Source: Sulfurovum sp.
GTDB lineage: Bacteria; Campylobacterota; Campylobacteria; Campylobacterales; Sulfurovaceae
Length of the DNA stretch: 39,315 nucleotides
NCBI GenBank assembly: GCA_027082955.1
Contig: JALWTA010000041.1
Location: 1-39,315, forward strand
Reading direction: 5' to 3'
Part shown: in pieces, positions 1,833 to 39,292 of the stretch
How positions within the stretch are numbered: position 1 is the first letter of the stretch
Layout: each line of letters opens with the position of its first letter
The notes under the pieces: generated by a model
Told to the model about the DNA's origin: nothing
Database searches by the model: none
What the model saw: only the letters and a program-made list of their open reading frames with translations
Translations under genes and position numbers: made by a program

Positions 1833-2035
1833 GGTAGGTAGTAGGTAGTAGGTAGTAGGTAGTAGGTAGAAGGTAGAAGGTAGAAGGTAGAAGGTAGAAG
1901 GTAGAAGGTAGAAGGTAGAAATGATAACAAGAGTAAAGTTTATGTCAACCCATTTTAAACATACTACATCTCACAACAAAAACATTGCAAAGCAATGCAT
2001 ACCAACACTCCTACCTCCTACTTCCTACCTCCTAC
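1833..2035. repeat. Intergenic element A with inverted heptamer arrays
   Basis: The left side holds four GGTAGTA units (1837-1864) followed by eight GGTAGAA units (1865-1920), a 12-copy 7-bp tandem array. The right side holds four 7-bp units CTCCTAC, CTCCTAC, TTCCTAC, CTCCTAC (2008-2035), whose reverse complements (GTAGGAG/GTAGGAA) resemble the left units. Between them lie about 87 bp with a CATTGC-AAA-GCAATG hairpin (1983-1997) and the decamer GTCAACCCAT (1944-1953), which recurs in inverse orientation in element B. The element fills most of the 278-bp gap between dnaG and the lapB-like gene. No ORF is supported inside. Confidence 0.75.
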
Positions 2036-2078
2036 TTAAACTAGCTCCTCACTCTTCTCTGTGCCAAAGGCATACATA

Positions 2079-15427: not shown

Positions 15428-16504
15428 CTACCAGTTGATTTCAGCAGTTAGAAGATATTTTTTATCGTTATTGTTATCTTTTTCATCTTTTTGGTAGTTT
15501 GCTACAAACTCAACATATTTATTGTACTGATATGCAATACCTGCAAAGGTTGTTTTCTTCTCAGTACCGCTATCGAGGGTATAGTCATCATAACGTCCAA
15601 GCACATTCCACTTGTTCAAACTCTCAGAGAGTGTACCAAGTCTGAATTCACCATTGACTGACCATCCGTCACCTTGTCTGCTTGCGCCTGCTTTATCGGC
15701 TTTAAGATACATACCTGCAAGCAAAAATTCAGGCTGATTATAGACAGCATGCAGACCATACCATACATAGTCACCATCTACATTGCCAAAACCTGTGTCA
15801 TTTTTACCATAGCTACCAAAGAAAGATACGTCTGCATAAGTATCGGACTTATGTACGTGTTTTTTACCTGTACCAAGAAGGTGTCCTGTAAGTCTCCACT
15901 CACCTCTTAGTCCTTTACCATCTTCTACCCCATGATATCCTGCACCATTAAACACACCGATTTCAGAGGAGAAATAGTCTGTTTTTGTCTTAAAGTTGAT
16001 CCCATAATCAGAAGAATTTTGCAAATGACCGCCATTGTGCTGTTCACTGAACGTTTCGCTGATAGATCTGTAGTACCATCCGTGGTGCTCTTCATAGTCA
16101 AGCCAAGGTGTGTGTGCCAGACCGATTTCTACACCTGTTGAAGGAAGGATATTATCAAGATAGAGGAATGCATATTTTACCCGTACATCCAATGAACCAC
16201 CATCAAAATTACTGTTTTGCTTTGCATCAAGTGTAACTCTCATGTAACTTTTTGGCTCATCTGCAAAATAGGCTTTTACTTGAACATAGTTCCTGCTAAG
16301 CCCAAATTTGTTTGTTACATTACCATCAACATCTCGGTTCTGATAGTGAAGATAGTGCTGCCCTGAAAATTTAAGTACTGCTGCACCGGATTTTACCGTT
16401 ACACCTGCCGGTGCCTCTGTATGTGTTGGTGCTACCGGAGCAATATCTCCGCCTGCTACTGCTACTGCAGCCACTGCTGCCATAGATAATGCGATTTTTT
16501 TCAT
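15428..16504 (-). CDS. OprO/OprP-like porin, probably phosphate-selective
   Basis: 358-aa outer-membrane beta-barrel. A signal peptide (MKKIALSMAAVAAVAVAGG) precedes amphipathic strands and a terminal strand ending in a hydrophobic residue (LLTAEINW). The middle resembles the phosphate/polyphosphate porin family: RVKYAFLYLDNILPSTGVEIGLAHTPWLD, YGINFKTKTDYFSSEIGVFNG (in parts). Strong SD AAGGAAGGA. The promoter carries the best Pho-box array of the island (four units), so a role in phosphate entry under starvation is likely. Substrate selectivity is inferred, not shown. Confidence 0.85.
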   Translation of the reverse strand: MKKIALSMAAVAAVAVAGGDIAPVAPTHTEAPAGVTVKSGAAVLKFSGQHYLHYQNRDVDGNVTNKFGLSRNYVQVKAYFADEPKSYMRVTLDAKQNSNFDGGSLDVRVKYAFLYLDNILPSTGVEIGLAHTPWLDYEEHHGWYYRSISETFSEQHNGGHLQNSSDYGINFKTKTDYFSSEIGVFNGAGYHGVEDGKGLRGEWRLTGHLLGTGKKHVHKSDTYADVSFFGSYGKNDTGFGNVDGDYVWYGLHAVYNQPEFLLAGMYLKADKAGASRQGDGWSVNGEFRLGTLSESLNKWNVLGRYDDYTLDSGTEKKTTFAGIAYQYNKYVEFVANYQKDEKDNNNDKKYLLTAEINW

Positions 16505-16538: not shown

Positions 16539-16593
16539 AGTATAAAAAAAAAGGGTTACAGAAATGTTACAAAAGGATTACAGAAAGATTACA
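16539..16593 (-). promoter_or_regulatory. Four-unit Pho box and -10 box of the porin gene
   Basis: Plus-strand units GTTACA (16555-16560), GTTACA (16566-16571), ATTACA (16577-16582) and ATTACA (16588-16593) recur at exactly 11 bp. On the coding strand each reads [C/T]TGTAA[T/C]. The -10 box TATACT (16544-16539) is 10 bp from the proximal unit, like the E. coli Pho-box layout in which the repeats replace the -35 element. Confidence 0.75.
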
Positions 16594-16597
16594 GGGT

Positions 16598-16753
16598 GGG
16601 TAGTGGGTAGTGGGTAGTGGGTAGTGGGTAGTGAATTTTACATGGGTTGACTGAAAGGAGAGTTGCATTTTTGCGGGGCTAAAGCCTCCGATTCCAAACA
16701 TATCTCCGGTTCAAATAGAAAAAAGCAAATCACCAATACGCCAGTTACCAATA
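16598..16753. repeat. Intergenic element B with heptamer ends and REP-like core
   Basis: Five GGGTAGT units (16598-16632) form the left end, abutting the porin Pho box. The core includes ATGGGTTGAC (16642-16651) and GCGGGGCTAAAGCCTCCG followed by ATTCC (16673-16695). The right end has two ACCAATA units (16732-16738 and 16747-16753), the same type as the right array of element D. The element ends 6 bp before the ankyrin gene stop. No ORF is supported. Confidence 0.7.
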
Positions 16754-16759
16754 ACACCC

Positions 16760-17287
16760 TTAATCCCGATAGGCAGCATGTTTGGCACCGCGCTCTTCAA
16801 GATAGGCTTTCATCTGTTTCTGTCCAAGTTTTCGGGCATAGTCAAGCGGGCTCATGCCTGCACTGTCAGTAGCGTTAATGTCACCGCCTGCATCCAGCAG
16901 CATCTGCATCATATCTATATCGGAAAAACAGGCAGCAAGCATTACAGGCGTAATACCGCTTTTGCGTTTTGTGTTGTTTAGATCAAATCCGGCATCTAGA
17001 CACAACTGTATCACATCTTTGCGTTTGAACTTGATCGCCATATCGAGTGCGGAGATACCGTCACTGTCTGTTGCAAAGAGGTCAACACCATTCTCAAGCA
17101 TAAAAGATATCAACTCCAAAGAGGCATATTTACGTATGGCATAAAAAAGAGGAGAGATTTCATCATACTCTTCAAGATCATACTCTTCCCCTATTAATAT
17201 AGGTTTATTTAGATCGATCCCCTCTTTCACCAATGCCTTTAATGCGGCAATGGAGTCATGTTCTATTGCTTCTGTTACCTTGTTCAT
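16760..17287 (-). CDS. Ankyrin-repeat protein
   Basis: Small soluble protein of 175 aa with no signal peptide or TM helix. It is built of about four ankyrin repeats, for example DSDGISALDMAIKFKRKDVI, KSGITPVMLAACFSDIDMMQ and DSAGMSPLDYARKLGQKQMK, with the usual G-x-(T/S)-(P/A)-L-x-x-A pattern and helix pairs. Ankyrin folds mediate protein binding; the partner is unknown. The ATG at 17287 has AAGGAG five bases upstream and is preferred to a GTG at 17293 that overlaps that SD. Upstream, divergently, is a 41-aa small ORF. Confidence 0.88.
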   Translation of the reverse strand: MNKVTEAIEHDSIAALKALVKEGIDLNKPILIGEEYDLEEYDEISPLFYAIRKYASLELISFMLENGVDLFATDSDGISALDMAIKFKRKDVIQLCLDAGFDLNNTKRKSGITPVMLAACFSDIDMMQMLLDAGGDINATDSAGMSPLDYARKLGQKQMKAYLEERGAKHAAYRD

Positions 17288-17339
17288 GCTCACTCCTTTG
17301 CGTGTTACCGTTATGTTGCCAATCCTTGTTAGTATGGCG

Positions 17340-20167: not shown

Positions 20168-21452
20168 CCAAAACGGTCTTTCACTCGATCAGGCACCGCC
20201 CATTTCTGTCGTTTTCCGATTCTTTCTCTCAGGGAGTCTCTTTGGCGTACTTACAGGAGCATTCGTACTCTACTTTGGCAGTGATATTTTCAACGCTGAC
20301 AGCACAAAAGCATTAATAGTTACCCACACGTTGACACTTGGGGTCATGCTTTCATTTATGCTTGGTGCACTTTTTCAGATGCTGCCTGTCATTGCCGGGA
20401 TCAAACTCACCTCACCGGTCAAAAAAGCAAACCTCGTTCAGTACCCATTGGTACTTGGCATACTCTCTTTGCTAAGTGCCTTCTATAGCGGGGAACCGGC
20501 ACTTTTCATAAGTGCTTCTCTGCTGCTTGGTGTCACCATACTCGGCATTGCATCCATCATGCTGAAAAATCTGCTTGCCCTGCCAAACCACAGCAACTCC
20601 TCGAAAGGTATGACGATTGCACTTGGATCGCTCATACTGCTGACCCTATTTGCGCTTTACCTTACCGGTACGCTCTCTGGTTTTTTTGAAGGCACTTTTT
20701 ACGGTCAGATTAAAACAGCGCACTACTCTTTTGGGCTCTTTGGCTGGATTGCCCTCTTGATCATCTCTATCTCCTTTCAGGTGATTGAGATGTTCTATGT
20801 AACACCCCCCTATCCGGACTTCATAGGCAAATCACTGCCAATGCGCCTCTTTGGACTGCTCTTGATTGGGCTGGTATTTGGATTTTTCTTTGCAAACATA
20901 TGGAGGATCGTCGATCTGTTCATCATCGTGTTTATGCTCTGTTATGCGCTGATGACCCTCCGCCGTCTCTCTCAGCGTAAACGCCCTATTGCTGACGCTA
21001 CAGTTTGGCTCTGGCGCCTTGGCATGGTGCTTCTGGTGCTGAGTATGGCTGCCATGCTGACCACCCGTTTTTATACACTACCCCCTCTTAATTCACTTAA
21101 CTACATCTTTTTCGCGGGCTTTGCACTGAGTATCGTTTTTGCCATGTTCTACAAGATCGTACCTTTTCTGACATGGTTTCACCTTAACGCACAAGGCTAT
21201 TTCACCGCCCCCATGATGCATGAGGTCATCCACCCCAAAACGGCAATGAAACACCTCTACATTCACCTTGCTACCCTTACGGCATTTCTGGTATCAGTCT
21301 ATTACGCACCGGTCATCTACCTTGCCGGCTCCCTGCTGATACTCTCTTTTGGCTGGATGCTATGGCAGATCGTCCATGCGTGGAAGCTCTACATACATAC
21401 GCAGAAAACGGGAGAGAAGTTTGAAATGACGATGCCAGAGGTAGAGGGCTAA
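20160..21452 (+). CDS. 12-TM membrane protein, NnrS/heme-copper-oxidase-like
   Basis: 430-aa integral membrane protein with about twelve hydrophobic helices. Histidines near helix ends, as in VTHTLTLGVMLSFMLGALFQ, KTAHYSFGLFGWIAL and FLTWFHLNAQ, recall NnrS and heme-copper oxidase subunit I folds, but the full metal-ligand set of an oxidase or NO reductase is not evident, so the exact activity is unknown. The ATG at 20160 overlaps the DUF2249 gene by 8 bp with GAGG nine bases upstream. Its stop codon is itself part of the first GGGCTAA heptamer of repeat element C. Confidence 0.75.
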   Translation: MFSQNGLSLDQAPPISVVFRFFLSGSLFGVLTGAFVLYFGSDIFNADSTKALIVTHTLTLGVMLSFMLGALFQMLPVIAGIKLTSPVKKANLVQYPLVLGILSLLSAFYSGEPALFISASLLLGVTILGIASIMLKNLLALPNHSNSSKGMTIALGSLILLTLFALYLTGTLSGFFEGTFYGQIKTAHYSFGLFGWIALLIISISFQVIEMFYVTPPYPDFIGKSLPMRLFGLLLIGLVFGFFFANIWRIVDLFIIVFMLCYALMTLRRLSQRKRPIADATVWLWRLGMVLLVLSMAAMLTTRFYTLPPLNSLNYIFFAGFALSIVFAMFYKIVPFLTWFHLNAQGYFTAPMMHEVIHPKTAMKHLYIHLATLTAFLVSVYYAPVIYLAGSLLILSFGWMLWQIVHAWKLYIHTQKTGEKFEMTMPEVEG

Positions 21453-21523
21453 GGGCTAATTTTCAAGGTTGGACTGAAGCAAATCTTAACTACCTTTCGG
21501 AACCGAGTGCTTTAGCCTCGCCC
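21446..21523. repeat. Short intergenic element C (heptamers and REP-like core)
   Basis: Two GGGCTAA units (21446-21459) start inside the stop of the 12-TM gene. GGTTGGACTGAAG follows, similar to GGTTGACTGAAAG in element B. The inverted core GGAACCGAGTGCTTTAGCCT then CGCCC (21499-21523) is the complement of the GGGGCTAAAGC-type core of elements B and D. It lies between convergent genes and has no right-hand heptamer array. Confidence 0.55.
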
Positions 21524-21547
21524 TAATGTTAATTGACTCGATAACGG

Positions 21548-33087: not shown

Positions 33088-33279
33088 TTACTTCGATCTT
33101 ACAGCAGTGAGTGCTGTCTGGATTCTAGCGATATCTTTTTTCGCTGTTCTCAACTCAGAAGTGTTTGTAAGCTGCATTGTTTTCAACTTTGCATTCAGTG
33201 TAAACAGTTCAAGCTTCTTCTCTTTGAGCATCTCAAGCAGTTCTGCTTCGCTCTTCTCTTTCAAATCAATATATTTCAT
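33088..33279 (-). CDS. rpmC: 50S ribosomal protein L29
   Basis: 63-aa two-helix protein at the polypeptide exit tunnel: [20 protein letters not shown] and the signature [18 protein letters not shown]. Its ATG lies 14 bp inside the end of rplP, an unusually long overlap within this operon. Confidence 0.97.
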
Positions 33280-33691
33280 TACTGTCCTTTGAAGTGATGA
33301 TTTTACACTTGAATGGCAGTTTATGGATCGCCAGTGTCAATGCCTCACGTGCAAGAGACTCTTCAACACCTGCCATTTCAAAGATGATACGTCCGGGTTT
33401 GATATTCATCACCCATCTGTCCACAGCACCTTTACCTTTACCCATTCTTGTTTCAAGTGGTTTGGCAGTAAGAGGCTTGTCCGGGAATACACGGATCCAT
33501 GTCTTACCGGTTCTGCTGATCTTTCTTGTCATGGTAATACGCGCCGCTTCGATCTGGCGTGAATCAATACGTCCAGCCTCTACCGCTTTGATCGCAATAT
33601 CGCCGAACTCGATTTTGTTACCTCTGAAAGACTTACCGCGGTTACGGCCTTTTTGCTGCTTTCTCCATTTGGTTCTTTTAGGCATCAACAT
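33266..33691 (-). CDS. rplP: 50S ribosomal protein L16
   Basis: 141-aa protein organising the A-site region of the peptidyl transferase centre. [20 protein letters not shown] is the expected N-terminus and AGGTG lies seven bases before this ATG. Other features: [37 protein letters not shown]. Two bp after rpsC. Confidence 0.98.
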
Positions 33692-33693
33692 GG

Positions 33694-34392
33694 TTATTCA
33701 CCTCTCTTTCTGGAAGGTCTACGACCACCCTTTTTCTCTTCTTTCGGCTCTGCCTGAATCCCTTTTGCAAGTACTTCACCTTTGAAGATCCAGACCTTGA
33801 TACCGATGATTCCGTATGTGGTGTGCGCTTCAGCAAAACCGTAATCGATTTTCGCTCTAAGAGTATGCAGTGGCACACGACCTTCAAGATACCACTCGGT
33901 TCTTGCCATTTCAGCACCGCCAAGTCTTCCTGATACAGAGATTTTGATCCCTTTTGCACCAGACTTGAGTGCACCCTGAATCACTTTTTTCATTGCACGT
34001 CTGAAGGCAACACGGCGCTCAAGCTGTGTTGCAACGTTCTCTGCTGCAAGCTGAGCAGACGCCTGAGGACGCTTCTCTTCTTTGATGTTGATCGCAACAT
34101 CTTTGCCAAGCATTTTGGTCAGAGTCGCTTTCAGTTTTTCGATATCTGCACCCTTTTTACCAATGATGATACCAGGACGTGCAGTAACGATGTTGATTCT
34201 GAGTTTCTTGACAGTTCTTTCAATGATGATGTTGGAAACACCTGCATAGAAAAGCTCTTTTTTCAGGAACTTTCTGATTTTGTAGTCTTCTGCAAGAAAA
34301 TCAGCTGCTCTTGTTTTTGCAGGGAACCATCTTGACTCCCAGTTTCTGTTGATCCCTAGTCTAAGACCTATCGGATTGACTTTCTGACCCAT
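33694..34392 (-). CDS. rpsC: 30S ribosomal protein S3
   Basis: 232-aa mRNA-entry protein. N-terminal [20 protein letters not shown], a KH domain with the GxxG loop ([17 protein letters not shown]) and the C-terminal [21 protein letters not shown] basic C-terminal tail ([16 protein letters not shown]) follows. The start is directly adjacent to the rplV stop. Confidence 0.98.
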
Positions 34393-37824: not shown

Positions 37825-38904
37825 ATGGATTTGCTTGAACATTATCACACCCATCCTCCCCAAAATGACCACTATATTGTACGGAAGACTACCCTGCCCG
37901 AAAATGGCAATATCAACCTTTACGGTGCAAGGGGCAGCGGCAAAACCGCACTGGTACTGGACTACCTCAAAAACAGGGATGAACACACACTCTACATTGA
38001 CCTCGAAGATCCAAACCTCATCCTCAACACCCTTGATACCCTTCCCCTTGAAGCATTCATTGAAGAGTATGACATTACAGAACTCATCCTCGACCATTAT
38101 GAACCGGGCATGATAGACATCTTTCCCGATGTTGCACGCATCATACTGATCAGCCGTACGCCCGTTGAAGAAAAAGGATACCGAGTTGTACAGCTCTTTC
38201 CGCTTGACTATGAGGAGTTCATCGCCTTTGAACACAGCAGTTTGGCTTCAGTTGCTTTCAACCACTTCCTCAAAGCCGGTACGCTTCCTGCCATGGCGGG
38301 GCATACCCAAAACACAACCCTGAAGATGAAGCAGTTTTTCCAGCAGCAGTTCTCTCCAAACGAGCAGTCTCTCATCCTCATACTCGCCCGCTACAACACA
38401 CAGCCAATGACCGTGCATCAGATCTATACCTTTACCAAGGAGTATTTCCGTATCTCCAAAGATTTCGTCTACAGTGCCATCAAGCGCTTTGAACAGGAGG
38501 GGCTGCTCTACTTCATCGACAATGCCATCAAGCGCAGCGGTAAAAAGATGATTATGTACGATTTTGCTTTTGTCAAATACCTGACTGCCCATCAGCCTTT
38601 CGGTACACAGTTTGACAGCATGATCGCGCTGACACTTATCAAACACGGCATCGACTTTCAAACACTGGGCATACACGGCTACATCACTGCTGACAATGAA
38701 CTGATCATCCCTGCCCCGTTTGAAAGTGAAGAGAGCGTCTGGGTCAAATCACAAAAGAAGTTTGCCATCTACAAAAAACACGGCATTGCCAAAATCACCA
38801 TTGTCACCGTTGCGAACAGCTATGCCTTCGACATCGAAAAACTGCACTTTGAAGCGATACCTTTTAATGAATGGAGTATTGCGCACACGGAAAGCGAGGA
38901 ATGA
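37825..38904 (+). CDS. P-loop ATPase with winged-helix region
   Basis: 359-aa protein. Walker A is GARGSGKT (34-41), Walker B-like ELILDHY (86-92), and an ILISRT sensor-1-like strand follows. A winged-helix-like segment (MTVHQIYTFTKEYFRISKDF then VYSAIKRFEQEGLLYFI) comes in the middle. The layout resembles archaeal-type/DUF4143-like ATPases of the STAND/AAA group, but the C-terminal PD-(D/E)xK nuclease-like residues are not clear. The function is unknown. The ATG at 37825 has AGGGA seven bases upstream; an in-frame extension to 37747 runs through the promoter region and is rejected. Heptamer repeats begin at the base after its stop. Confidence 0.75.
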   Translation: MDLLEHYHTHPPQNDHYIVRKTTLPENGNINLYGARGSGKTALVLDYLKNRDEHTLYIDLEDPNLILNTLDTLPLEAFIEEYDITELILDHYEPGMIDIFPDVARIILISRTPVEEKGYRVVQLFPLDYEEFIAFEHSSLASVAFNHFLKAGTLPAMAGHTQNTTLKMKQFFQQQFSPNEQSLILILARYNTQPMTVHQIYTFTKEYFRISKDFVYSAIKRFEQEGLLYFIDNAIKRSGKKMIMYDFAFVKYLTAHQPFGTQFDSMIALTLIKHGIDFQTLGIHGYITADNELIIPAPFESEESVWVKSQKKFAIYKKHGIAKITIVTVANSYAFDIEKLHFEAIPFNEWSIAHTESEE

Positions 38905-39120
38905 GGATTAAGGATTAAGGATTAAGGAAATTTTTTATACATTTGTTGAAATAAGGCTTAACAAACCACTTCAGGAACCGAAAGCTTCGGCTATACGTTC
39001 TATAACTTTAGCGGGGCTATCCCGCAAGGGGATACACTACAATAAAGCCTTCGATTCCAAAAGATTACATAAGCTAACGTGAGCCAAACACCCAATAACC
39101 AATATACCAATTACCAATAA
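38905..39120. repeat. Intergenic element D with inverted heptamer ends
   Basis: Three GGATTAA units (38905-38925) begin at the first base after the ATPase stop. The right end has four CCAATAA-type units (39092-39098, 39099-39105, 39107-39113, 39114-39120), whose complements are GG-headed heptamers. The core is a long imperfect inverted repeat: GGAACCGAAAGC (38974-38985) against GCCTTCGATTCC (39047-39058). The shared GCGGGGCTA/AAAGCC core is split at 39020-39043 by 24 bp that include TATCCC-GCAA-GGGGATA. No ORF is supported in this 285-bp gap. Confidence 0.7.
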
Positions 39121-39176
39121 CAAACCGAAAGCCATAGCAAATATTTCACCGTATATTGCTATAAGCTTCCCTCTGC

Positions 39177-39189: not shown

Positions 39190-39292
39190 CCTCTTTTCAG
39201 ACCTGTGCAACGGGACTGAGGGACAACGGGTCAGGACGGGAACGTAGCAGCCCACCCCTCTTTCTCGTGTGCCGCAGCCATCTGGGAAGAGG
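39190..39292 (+). ncRNA. ffs: Signal recognition particle RNA (4.5S)
   Basis: The Ffh-binding domain IV is visible as GGGTCAGGACGGGAACGTAG then CAGCCC (39228-39253), with the family's GGAA-type tetraloop slot (here GGAA within CGGGAACG) and the symmetric and asymmetric internal loops. The ends close perfectly: CCTCTTTTCAGA (39190-39201) pairs with TCTGGGAAGAGG (39281-39292) allowing G-U pairs. The length of about 103 nt fits a short bacterial SRP RNA without an Alu domain. Confidence 0.93.

Follow-up and report, generated by a model that had tools for sequence, protein, structure and literature searches.

Between an ankyrin-repeat gene and a porin-like gene of this Sulfurovum sp. lies a composite repeat, here called element B, in which two different heptamer arrays enclose a palindromic core. 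Is such a structure a member of one mobile or recombination-generated family, as an earlier note made from the sequence alone had suggested, or an assembly of distinct repeats? We analysed it in its window (the whole stretch of DNA, 39,315 nucleotides), in the rest of the genome and in related genomes. The reading that we favour, with a probability of about 0.8, is that in element B two independent systems of intergenic repeats form a mosaic between the ankyrin gene and a putative Pho box.

Anatomy of element B and of similar elements in the window

Read from left to right (Table 1), element B consists of a GGGTAGT array, a linker, a palindromic core, an AT-rich stretch and right-hand heptamers. 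The left array is as regular as the earlier note had described it, its purine-rich strand reads into the element, and it is indeed joined to the repeat that the note had called the Pho box of a porin: it directly abuts TGTAA motifs spaced by 11 bp upstream of the porin-like gene. These motifs are kept in orthologs and look like a Pho box, a function that we infer from their sequence. The gene itself, for which the name "porin" comes from the earlier note, has orthologs within the genus and gave no family match in Pfam and NCBIfam searches. The ACCAATA units claimed for the right side are real but degenerate: they read CCAATAC-G-CCAGTTA-CCAATAA, three degenerate CCAATAx units, which must contain one indel since two exact ACCAATA copies stand 15 nt apart, and Tandem Repeats Finder did not report them. 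They are backed by CCAATAA arrays in element D and at locus L006, as well as by TATTGG units in the ortholog of the relative G009. On this side the element ends at the stop codon of the ankyrin-repeat gene. The motif ATGGGTTGAC, which had been noticed in inverted form in element A, is common to both elements; in element B it is part of the linker conserved in the orthologous gap (CATGGGTTGGCTGAAA in G016), and in element A it may be due to chance or represent a decayed linker. A search of the window for the core GGGGCTAAAGCCTCCGATTCC (16675-16695), allowing up to three mismatches, matched only the core itself (0 matches expected from shuffles).

Table 1. Positions of element B, its parts and neighbours, and of the other heptamer elements in the window.
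Feature	Positions	Strand	Basis
Porin-like gene, putative, 358 aa; downstream of element B	15428..16504	-	ORF
Putative Pho box, TGTAA(T/C) repeats, 11-bp period	16553..16593	-	Tandem Repeats Finder, orthologs
Heptamer array, GGGTAGT x5.4, exact copies, period 7	16596..16633	+	Sequence reading, Tandem Repeats Finder
Class II linker GAATTTTACATGGGTTGACTGAAA..., 39 nt	16634..16672	+	Orthologous gap comparison, array survey
Solo REP, 23 nt, right half of REPIN, GGAATCGGAGGCTTTAGCCCCGC	16673..16695	-	Flank reading, folding, pair search
Right-hand heptamers, degenerate, TTATTGG TAACTGG C GTATTGG; partner array facing inward	16732..16753	-	Sequence reading
Ankyrin-repeat gene, other boundary of the element B gap	16760..17293	-	Kept beside the gap in relatives
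Element A: inward pair AGGTAGT/A x12 + GTAGGAG x4	1834..2037	.	Tandem Repeats Finder, sequence reading
Composite as in element B: AGGGCTA x2 + linker (TTTTCAAGG..CTTAAC) + left REP half	21445..21530	+	
Element D: AGGATTA array + linker + full 89-bp REPIN + CCAATAA array	38902..39121	+	

Element A holds a hairpin of class I (see below), GGTATGC-ATTGC-TTT-GCAAT, which is kept inside its G016 ortholog together with different heptamers. Just downstream of element D, a bacterial small SRP RNA gene (39194-39291, RF00169, 64.5 bits) was the sole match in an Rfam search of the window.

The core as half of a REPIN and the associated transposase

In the whole 2.1-Mb genome, GGGGCTAAAGC with at most one mismatch has 56 matches, against 10 for the reversed control, and the strict half pattern GGAAYCGNNNGCTTYAGC has 50, against 0. 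The flanks of these matches reveal an inverted pair, TTGGAACCGAAAGCTTTAGCTTCG..~30 nt..CGGGGCTAAAGCCTCCGATTCCAA, of which the core is mostly the right half; the 34 non-redundant pairs are mostly 77-80 bp long, with 24 of them between 76 and 81 bp. The whole REPIN folds into a long hairpin (z -3.3), 84-bp and 78-bp tandem runs of copies are also present, and exact REP matches are intergenic or lie within short, doubtful ORFs. The core of element B is one half of such a REPIN (for the definition, see PMC3116915; for REP and BIME, PMC8266576), a solo REP that has kept the foot GGAA and an imperfect palindrome and has lost the left half and the spacer. The system is of the known REPIN/RAYT kind (Bertels and Rainey 2011, PMC3116915; TnpA-REP, PMC8266576), with which it shares short imperfect palindromes (20-50 nt) behind a conserved 5' tetranucleotide, high copy number, intergenic location, inverted pairs and tandem copies, a cognate Y1 transposase flanked by its own repeats, and the parallel divergence of REP and RAYT. 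It differs in its foot, GGAA instead of the usual GTAG, in its two unequal halves (GGAACCGAAAGC.. and GGAATCGGAGGC..) and in that its REPINs often dock to heptamer elements at a constant distance. Short palindromic repeats are also reported for Sulfurovum sp. NBC37-1, of the same genus, with the tags GTAG and CGTC (PMC3733652), whereas the REPs of our genome carry neither tag. This family gives the Campylobacterota a REPIN/RAYT pair that is well delimited and has a foot other than GTAG.

Three Y1_Tnp genes are present in the genome, on contigs C33, C29 and C30. The C33 ORF (177 aa, with the HUH motif HVH and Tyr..NP visible in its translation) has tandem REPINs of the core's family on both sides. 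It exceeds the Pfam Y1_Tnp cut-off, and among NCBIfam families it matches the REP-associated tyrosine transposase best (67 bits for a cut-off of 80, E 1.5e-18). This RAYT-like protein is probably, as its sequence and surroundings suggest, the spreader of these REPINs, which would be non-autonomous hairpin elements of ~79 bp mobilized as single-stranded DNA, in line with what is established for other REPINs and their RAYTs (PMC3116915, PMC8266576); the GGAA foot in place of the usual GTAG counts against this reading. A search of named genomes for the RAYT retrieved only four relatives, one of them a Campylobacterales MAG. The RAYTs of G001, G017 and G024 are 49-54% identical to the C33 protein. 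REPs of the GGAAGTGGAGACTTTAGTCCCACC type, with the same foot and layout and a changed stem, adjoin the RAYTs of G001 and G017, and a more diverged GGAAGTGGAGACTTTAGTCCCACC version adjoins that of G024. The presence of such REPs beside RAYTs of ~50% identity (only partly so in G024) indicates that REP and RAYT diverged together. The REP of our own genome has only two matches in G024 and none in G016. A further point against spread by the RAYT is that G002 and G009 contain these REPs without a close RAYT, so that either REPs can outlive their RAYT or the RAYT is missing there.

The transposases on C29 and C30 were rejected as the source of the core, as their flanking repeats differ and show no link to element B. 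The C30 gene (L033 1250-1960; C30 ~33150-33860) is a second RAYT-type gene, scoring 98 bits and thereby exceeding the NCBIfam cut-off, and is flanked by the perfect palindromes TTCCACATC-GGGA-GATGTGGAA, a separate REP family. The C29 protein (L065 960-1760; 256 aa), which weakly matches an HTH domain at its C-terminus, is encoded between inverted repeats GGGGTCAGGTGATAATGATAAC.

Heptamer arrays and the sequences at their ends

Heptamer repeats are known from several bacterial phyla, and to our knowledge no explanation of their period of 7 is generally accepted. We compared periods 3 to 24 in a 439-kb sample of our genome and in 400 kb of G016, counting as exact arrays runs of 14 or 17 matching bases at a given period. 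Period 7 stood out above all others: it yielded 25-28 exact arrays in our genome (0-3 at any other period) and 15-19 in G016 (0-2), shuffles giving none in either case. The unit-independent pattern TRRnnnn x5 had 271 matches in our genome at period 7 and two at period 8, which was taken as control instead of the reversed pattern because purine-rich arrays match the latter as well. Within the genus, period-7 TRR matches are most numerous in our genome, G002 and G009, also the richest in REPs; G016 has 71 and no REP match. The sampled stretches of G024 and G031 are almost devoid of arrays, and G027, from another family, has many. The distribution across genomes of neither DinB-type polymerases (PF00817) nor MutS (PF01624) tracks heptamer abundance. 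In the sample, the many units fall into 33 rotation classes, the commonest being AGTGAAG, and arrays form inward-facing pairs. A stop codon occurs on the purine-rich inward strand of 31 of the 33 units, for 23.2 ± 2.2 expected from base composition, which accounts for most of this count. Of 98 Tandem Repeats Finder arrays, 20 contain an indel, so that the 7-nt step, though strict, has exceptions. Among particular cases, G027 (contig C1, e.g., 766173-766287 and 84733-84869) carries very long TGAGAAG, TGAGCAG and TGGGCAT arrays, as well as a separate set of octamer arrays (TGAGAAGG), and one heptamer array of locus L080 (451-482, C14:17600; GAATTAGGAATGAGG) apparently lies inside a HypF-like coding sequence.

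The GGGAATC heptamers of Xanthomonas and GGGGATT heptamers of Nostoc (PMC4692102) resemble those described here in their 7-nt period, their intergenic location, their sometimes convergent pairs and the variation of array size and sequence between related species. However, one unit type is described per genome there, against dozens in a single genome here, where most units have no G-runs and the arrays adjoin either a hairpin with covariation or a linker that is conserved. The same source cites an earlier proposal that explains period 7 by a polymerase footprint. Because G-rich heptamers of this type have been studied in those genera, and because GGG-N4 x5 can form a G-quadruplex as judged from its sequence, the GGGTAGT array might be kept as a G4 controlling the Pho-regulated gene. 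We regard this as very improbable, since G-runs are absent from the orthologous arrays of G016 (ATGAGTT) and G020 (TGTGATT) and from most other arrays, including those of the commonest unit. In Beggiatoaceae, TAACTGA direct repeats (PMC4679880) are likewise intergenic heptamers, often just upstream of start codons, but they consist of one invariant unit, whereas units vary here and TAACTGA is absent from those listed.

A recognizable type of core lies just inside the array in 44 of 69 exact arrays. In class I (25 of 69), a hairpin, GGTWTGC-stem-loop-GCTTTTATT, follows, mostly at a distance of 1-6 nt from the array end; class II arrays (19 of 69) run, usually after 0-4 nt, into an AATTTT run, and the class II linker, AATTTTnCAT, continues as TTTT(T/G)CAT..about 20 nt..CTTAA. 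Element B belongs to class II. In 22 class I sequences, all 147 cells of the 7-bp stem are paired (100%), a proportion that is partly built in as the sequences were picked for forming a hairpin; the informative part is the variety of compensating pairs, both sides having changed in five of seven pairs with a covariation score reached in 0 of 500 shuffles. A heptamer element, of a kind spread throughout this genome, comprises an array, a conserved linker or hairpin and an inverted second array, GGGTAGT and ACCAATA being the two inward-facing arrays of element B. Such arrays would lengthen, shorten and change unit stepwise, slipping by 7 nt at a time from an anchor at the inner hairpin or linker, and they would stop at functional boundaries such as stop codons, Shine-Dalgarno sequences or the Pho box. 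Growth by 7-nt slippage next to a structure that stalls synthesis might conceivably explain the step; along the 69 exact arrays, no clear gradient of age in the direction of the hairpin was seen, so that hairpin-anchored growth gains no support from them.

For arrays that could be assigned to a gene, the outer edge falls either around a stop codon, in most cases from -27 to +44, or ahead of a start codon, mostly by 12-34 nt. Hairpins of at least six pairs are found at 44% of gene starts behind arrays versus 8%, and hairpins containing a Shine-Dalgarno-like sequence at 9 of 25 gene starts beside arrays versus 31 of 741, figures that are approximate because start codons were taken from a simple ORF rule. 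The latter hairpins may be regulatory or a fold-back scar. In our genome and in G016 (e.g., L142 13500-13530, C38:93500), they pair the Shine-Dalgarno sequence with a gene-specific upstream sequence (AAAAACTCCAAAGGAGTTTTTAATG), and in one ortholog pair the arms differ with the pairing kept. These placements and gene-start hairpins, together with the stop codons within units and with inner hairpins that end in TTTTATT, are compensatorily conserved and in some cases score as terminators, could mean that heptamer elements are kept for a function at gene ends, where T-tailed inner hairpins would terminate transcription and arrays would serve as spacers or Rho/translation signals. We find this doubtful: many orthologous gaps do without the element, the stretches sampled in G024 and G031 have almost none, terminator-like matches in the tested 10 kb are in modest excess (13 versus 8.5 ± 3.0 in shuffles) and element B has no terminator-like hairpin. 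Functional maintenance concerns the persistence of heptamers and is compatible with the mosaic view.

Orthologous gaps and the relation between REPINs and arrays

The order ankyrin gene, Pho box and porin is syntenic in seven relatives, and the ankyrin side is also found in G009. There is almost no gap in G006, G018 and G017, and the gap is short and without array in G015 and G024. It holds AATCAC(A/T) x6 in G020 and, in G016, AACTCAT x7.6 beside CAGCCAACCCATGCAAAATTT, identical except at three positions to CAGTCAACCCATGTAAAATTC of element B, the linker being kept beside a different heptamer. In G009, TATTGG heptamers stand at the corresponding ankyrin stop codon, a full REPIN has the place and orientation of the solo half in element B, and further repeats lie between this REPIN and the homologous Pho box. 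The gene behind that box (L206 2108-3018) resembles the porin-like gene of the window in its signal-peptide region and differs from it in its body. Since both halves occur in G009 at the same place and in the same orientation, the simplest reading is that the solo REP would be the remnant, after deletion, of a REPIN predating the split from G009. It is likewise simplest to assume that array unit and REPIN vary independently in this gap.

Among 94 gaps syntenic between our genome and G016, five contain arrays in both, and the units are clearly different in four of the five; between species, orthologous gaps differ in heptamer unit while their flanks persist. The element B gap can be read across nine related genomes, in states that range from hardly any gap through array only to array plus REPIN, and in four further gaps arrays of clearly different unit occupy one place in two species; the origin and turnover of heptamer arrays thereby become directly testable by strain-level sequencing. 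Tentatively, the heptamer-hairpin elements may constitute a distinct intergenic class, characterized by a self-renewing 7-nt array, an inner end fixed by a covarying hairpin or linker, a unit that is exchanged as a whole from one species to another at one and the same site and, by gene starts, a Shine-Dalgarno-pairing hairpin at the outer end; they could be made by a mode of DNA synthesis that measures out 7 nt, as would a polymerase stalling at the hairpin and re-priming 7 nt back.

Two predictions attached to the earlier note were borne out. Presence/absence variation and different heptamers are seen in orthologous gaps (G006, G017, G018, G016, G020 and G009), and the core is found together with heptamers at other loci: of the 28 REP half-site matches in the 439-kb sample, about four of which probably fall in coding sequence by chance, 15 are no more than 160 bp away from an array, a share far above the 12.6% of random intergenic positions. 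Moreover, in 12 copies of our genome a class II linker is followed by a REPIN at 39-45 or 67 nt, the longer spacing corresponding to extra inverted units in between, and the GGAACC-type half always faces the linker. Such co-location, constant spacing and identical orientation are what a single composite mobile element (array, linker, REPIN, array) would produce if it transposed as a unit and its heptamers diverged later by slippage. We nevertheless consider this unlikely, because linker and heptamers are missing from roughly half of the REPIN loci, the ones beside the RAYT included, because G016 has linkers and many arrays without any REP of this family, and because in G009, G002 and G016 the end of the linker is occupied by other palindromes instead of the REPIN, as expected of a preferred insertion site rather than of a fixed unit. 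Arrays without REPINs and REPINs without arrays both being common, the idea of one mobile family with microsatellite ends does not hold, nor do core and ends always form one unit, as a MITE-like element with such ends would require.

In the mosaic that we favour, the association of REPINs with arrays is real, not obligatory, and fits REP docking at the linker end: REPINs would settle preferentially at the inner end of the linker with one constant half towards it. The statement that no described family has this design applies only to the combination, which we did not find in the searchable literature, as both REPIN/RAYT systems and heptanucleotide repeats have been described. In the same gaps as REPINs, G009 and G002 also show dispersed palindromes (e.g., GTCATCCCGCA..TGATGCGGGATCTTGACG; L206 1430-1465, L211, L214 and L215) inserted beside them.
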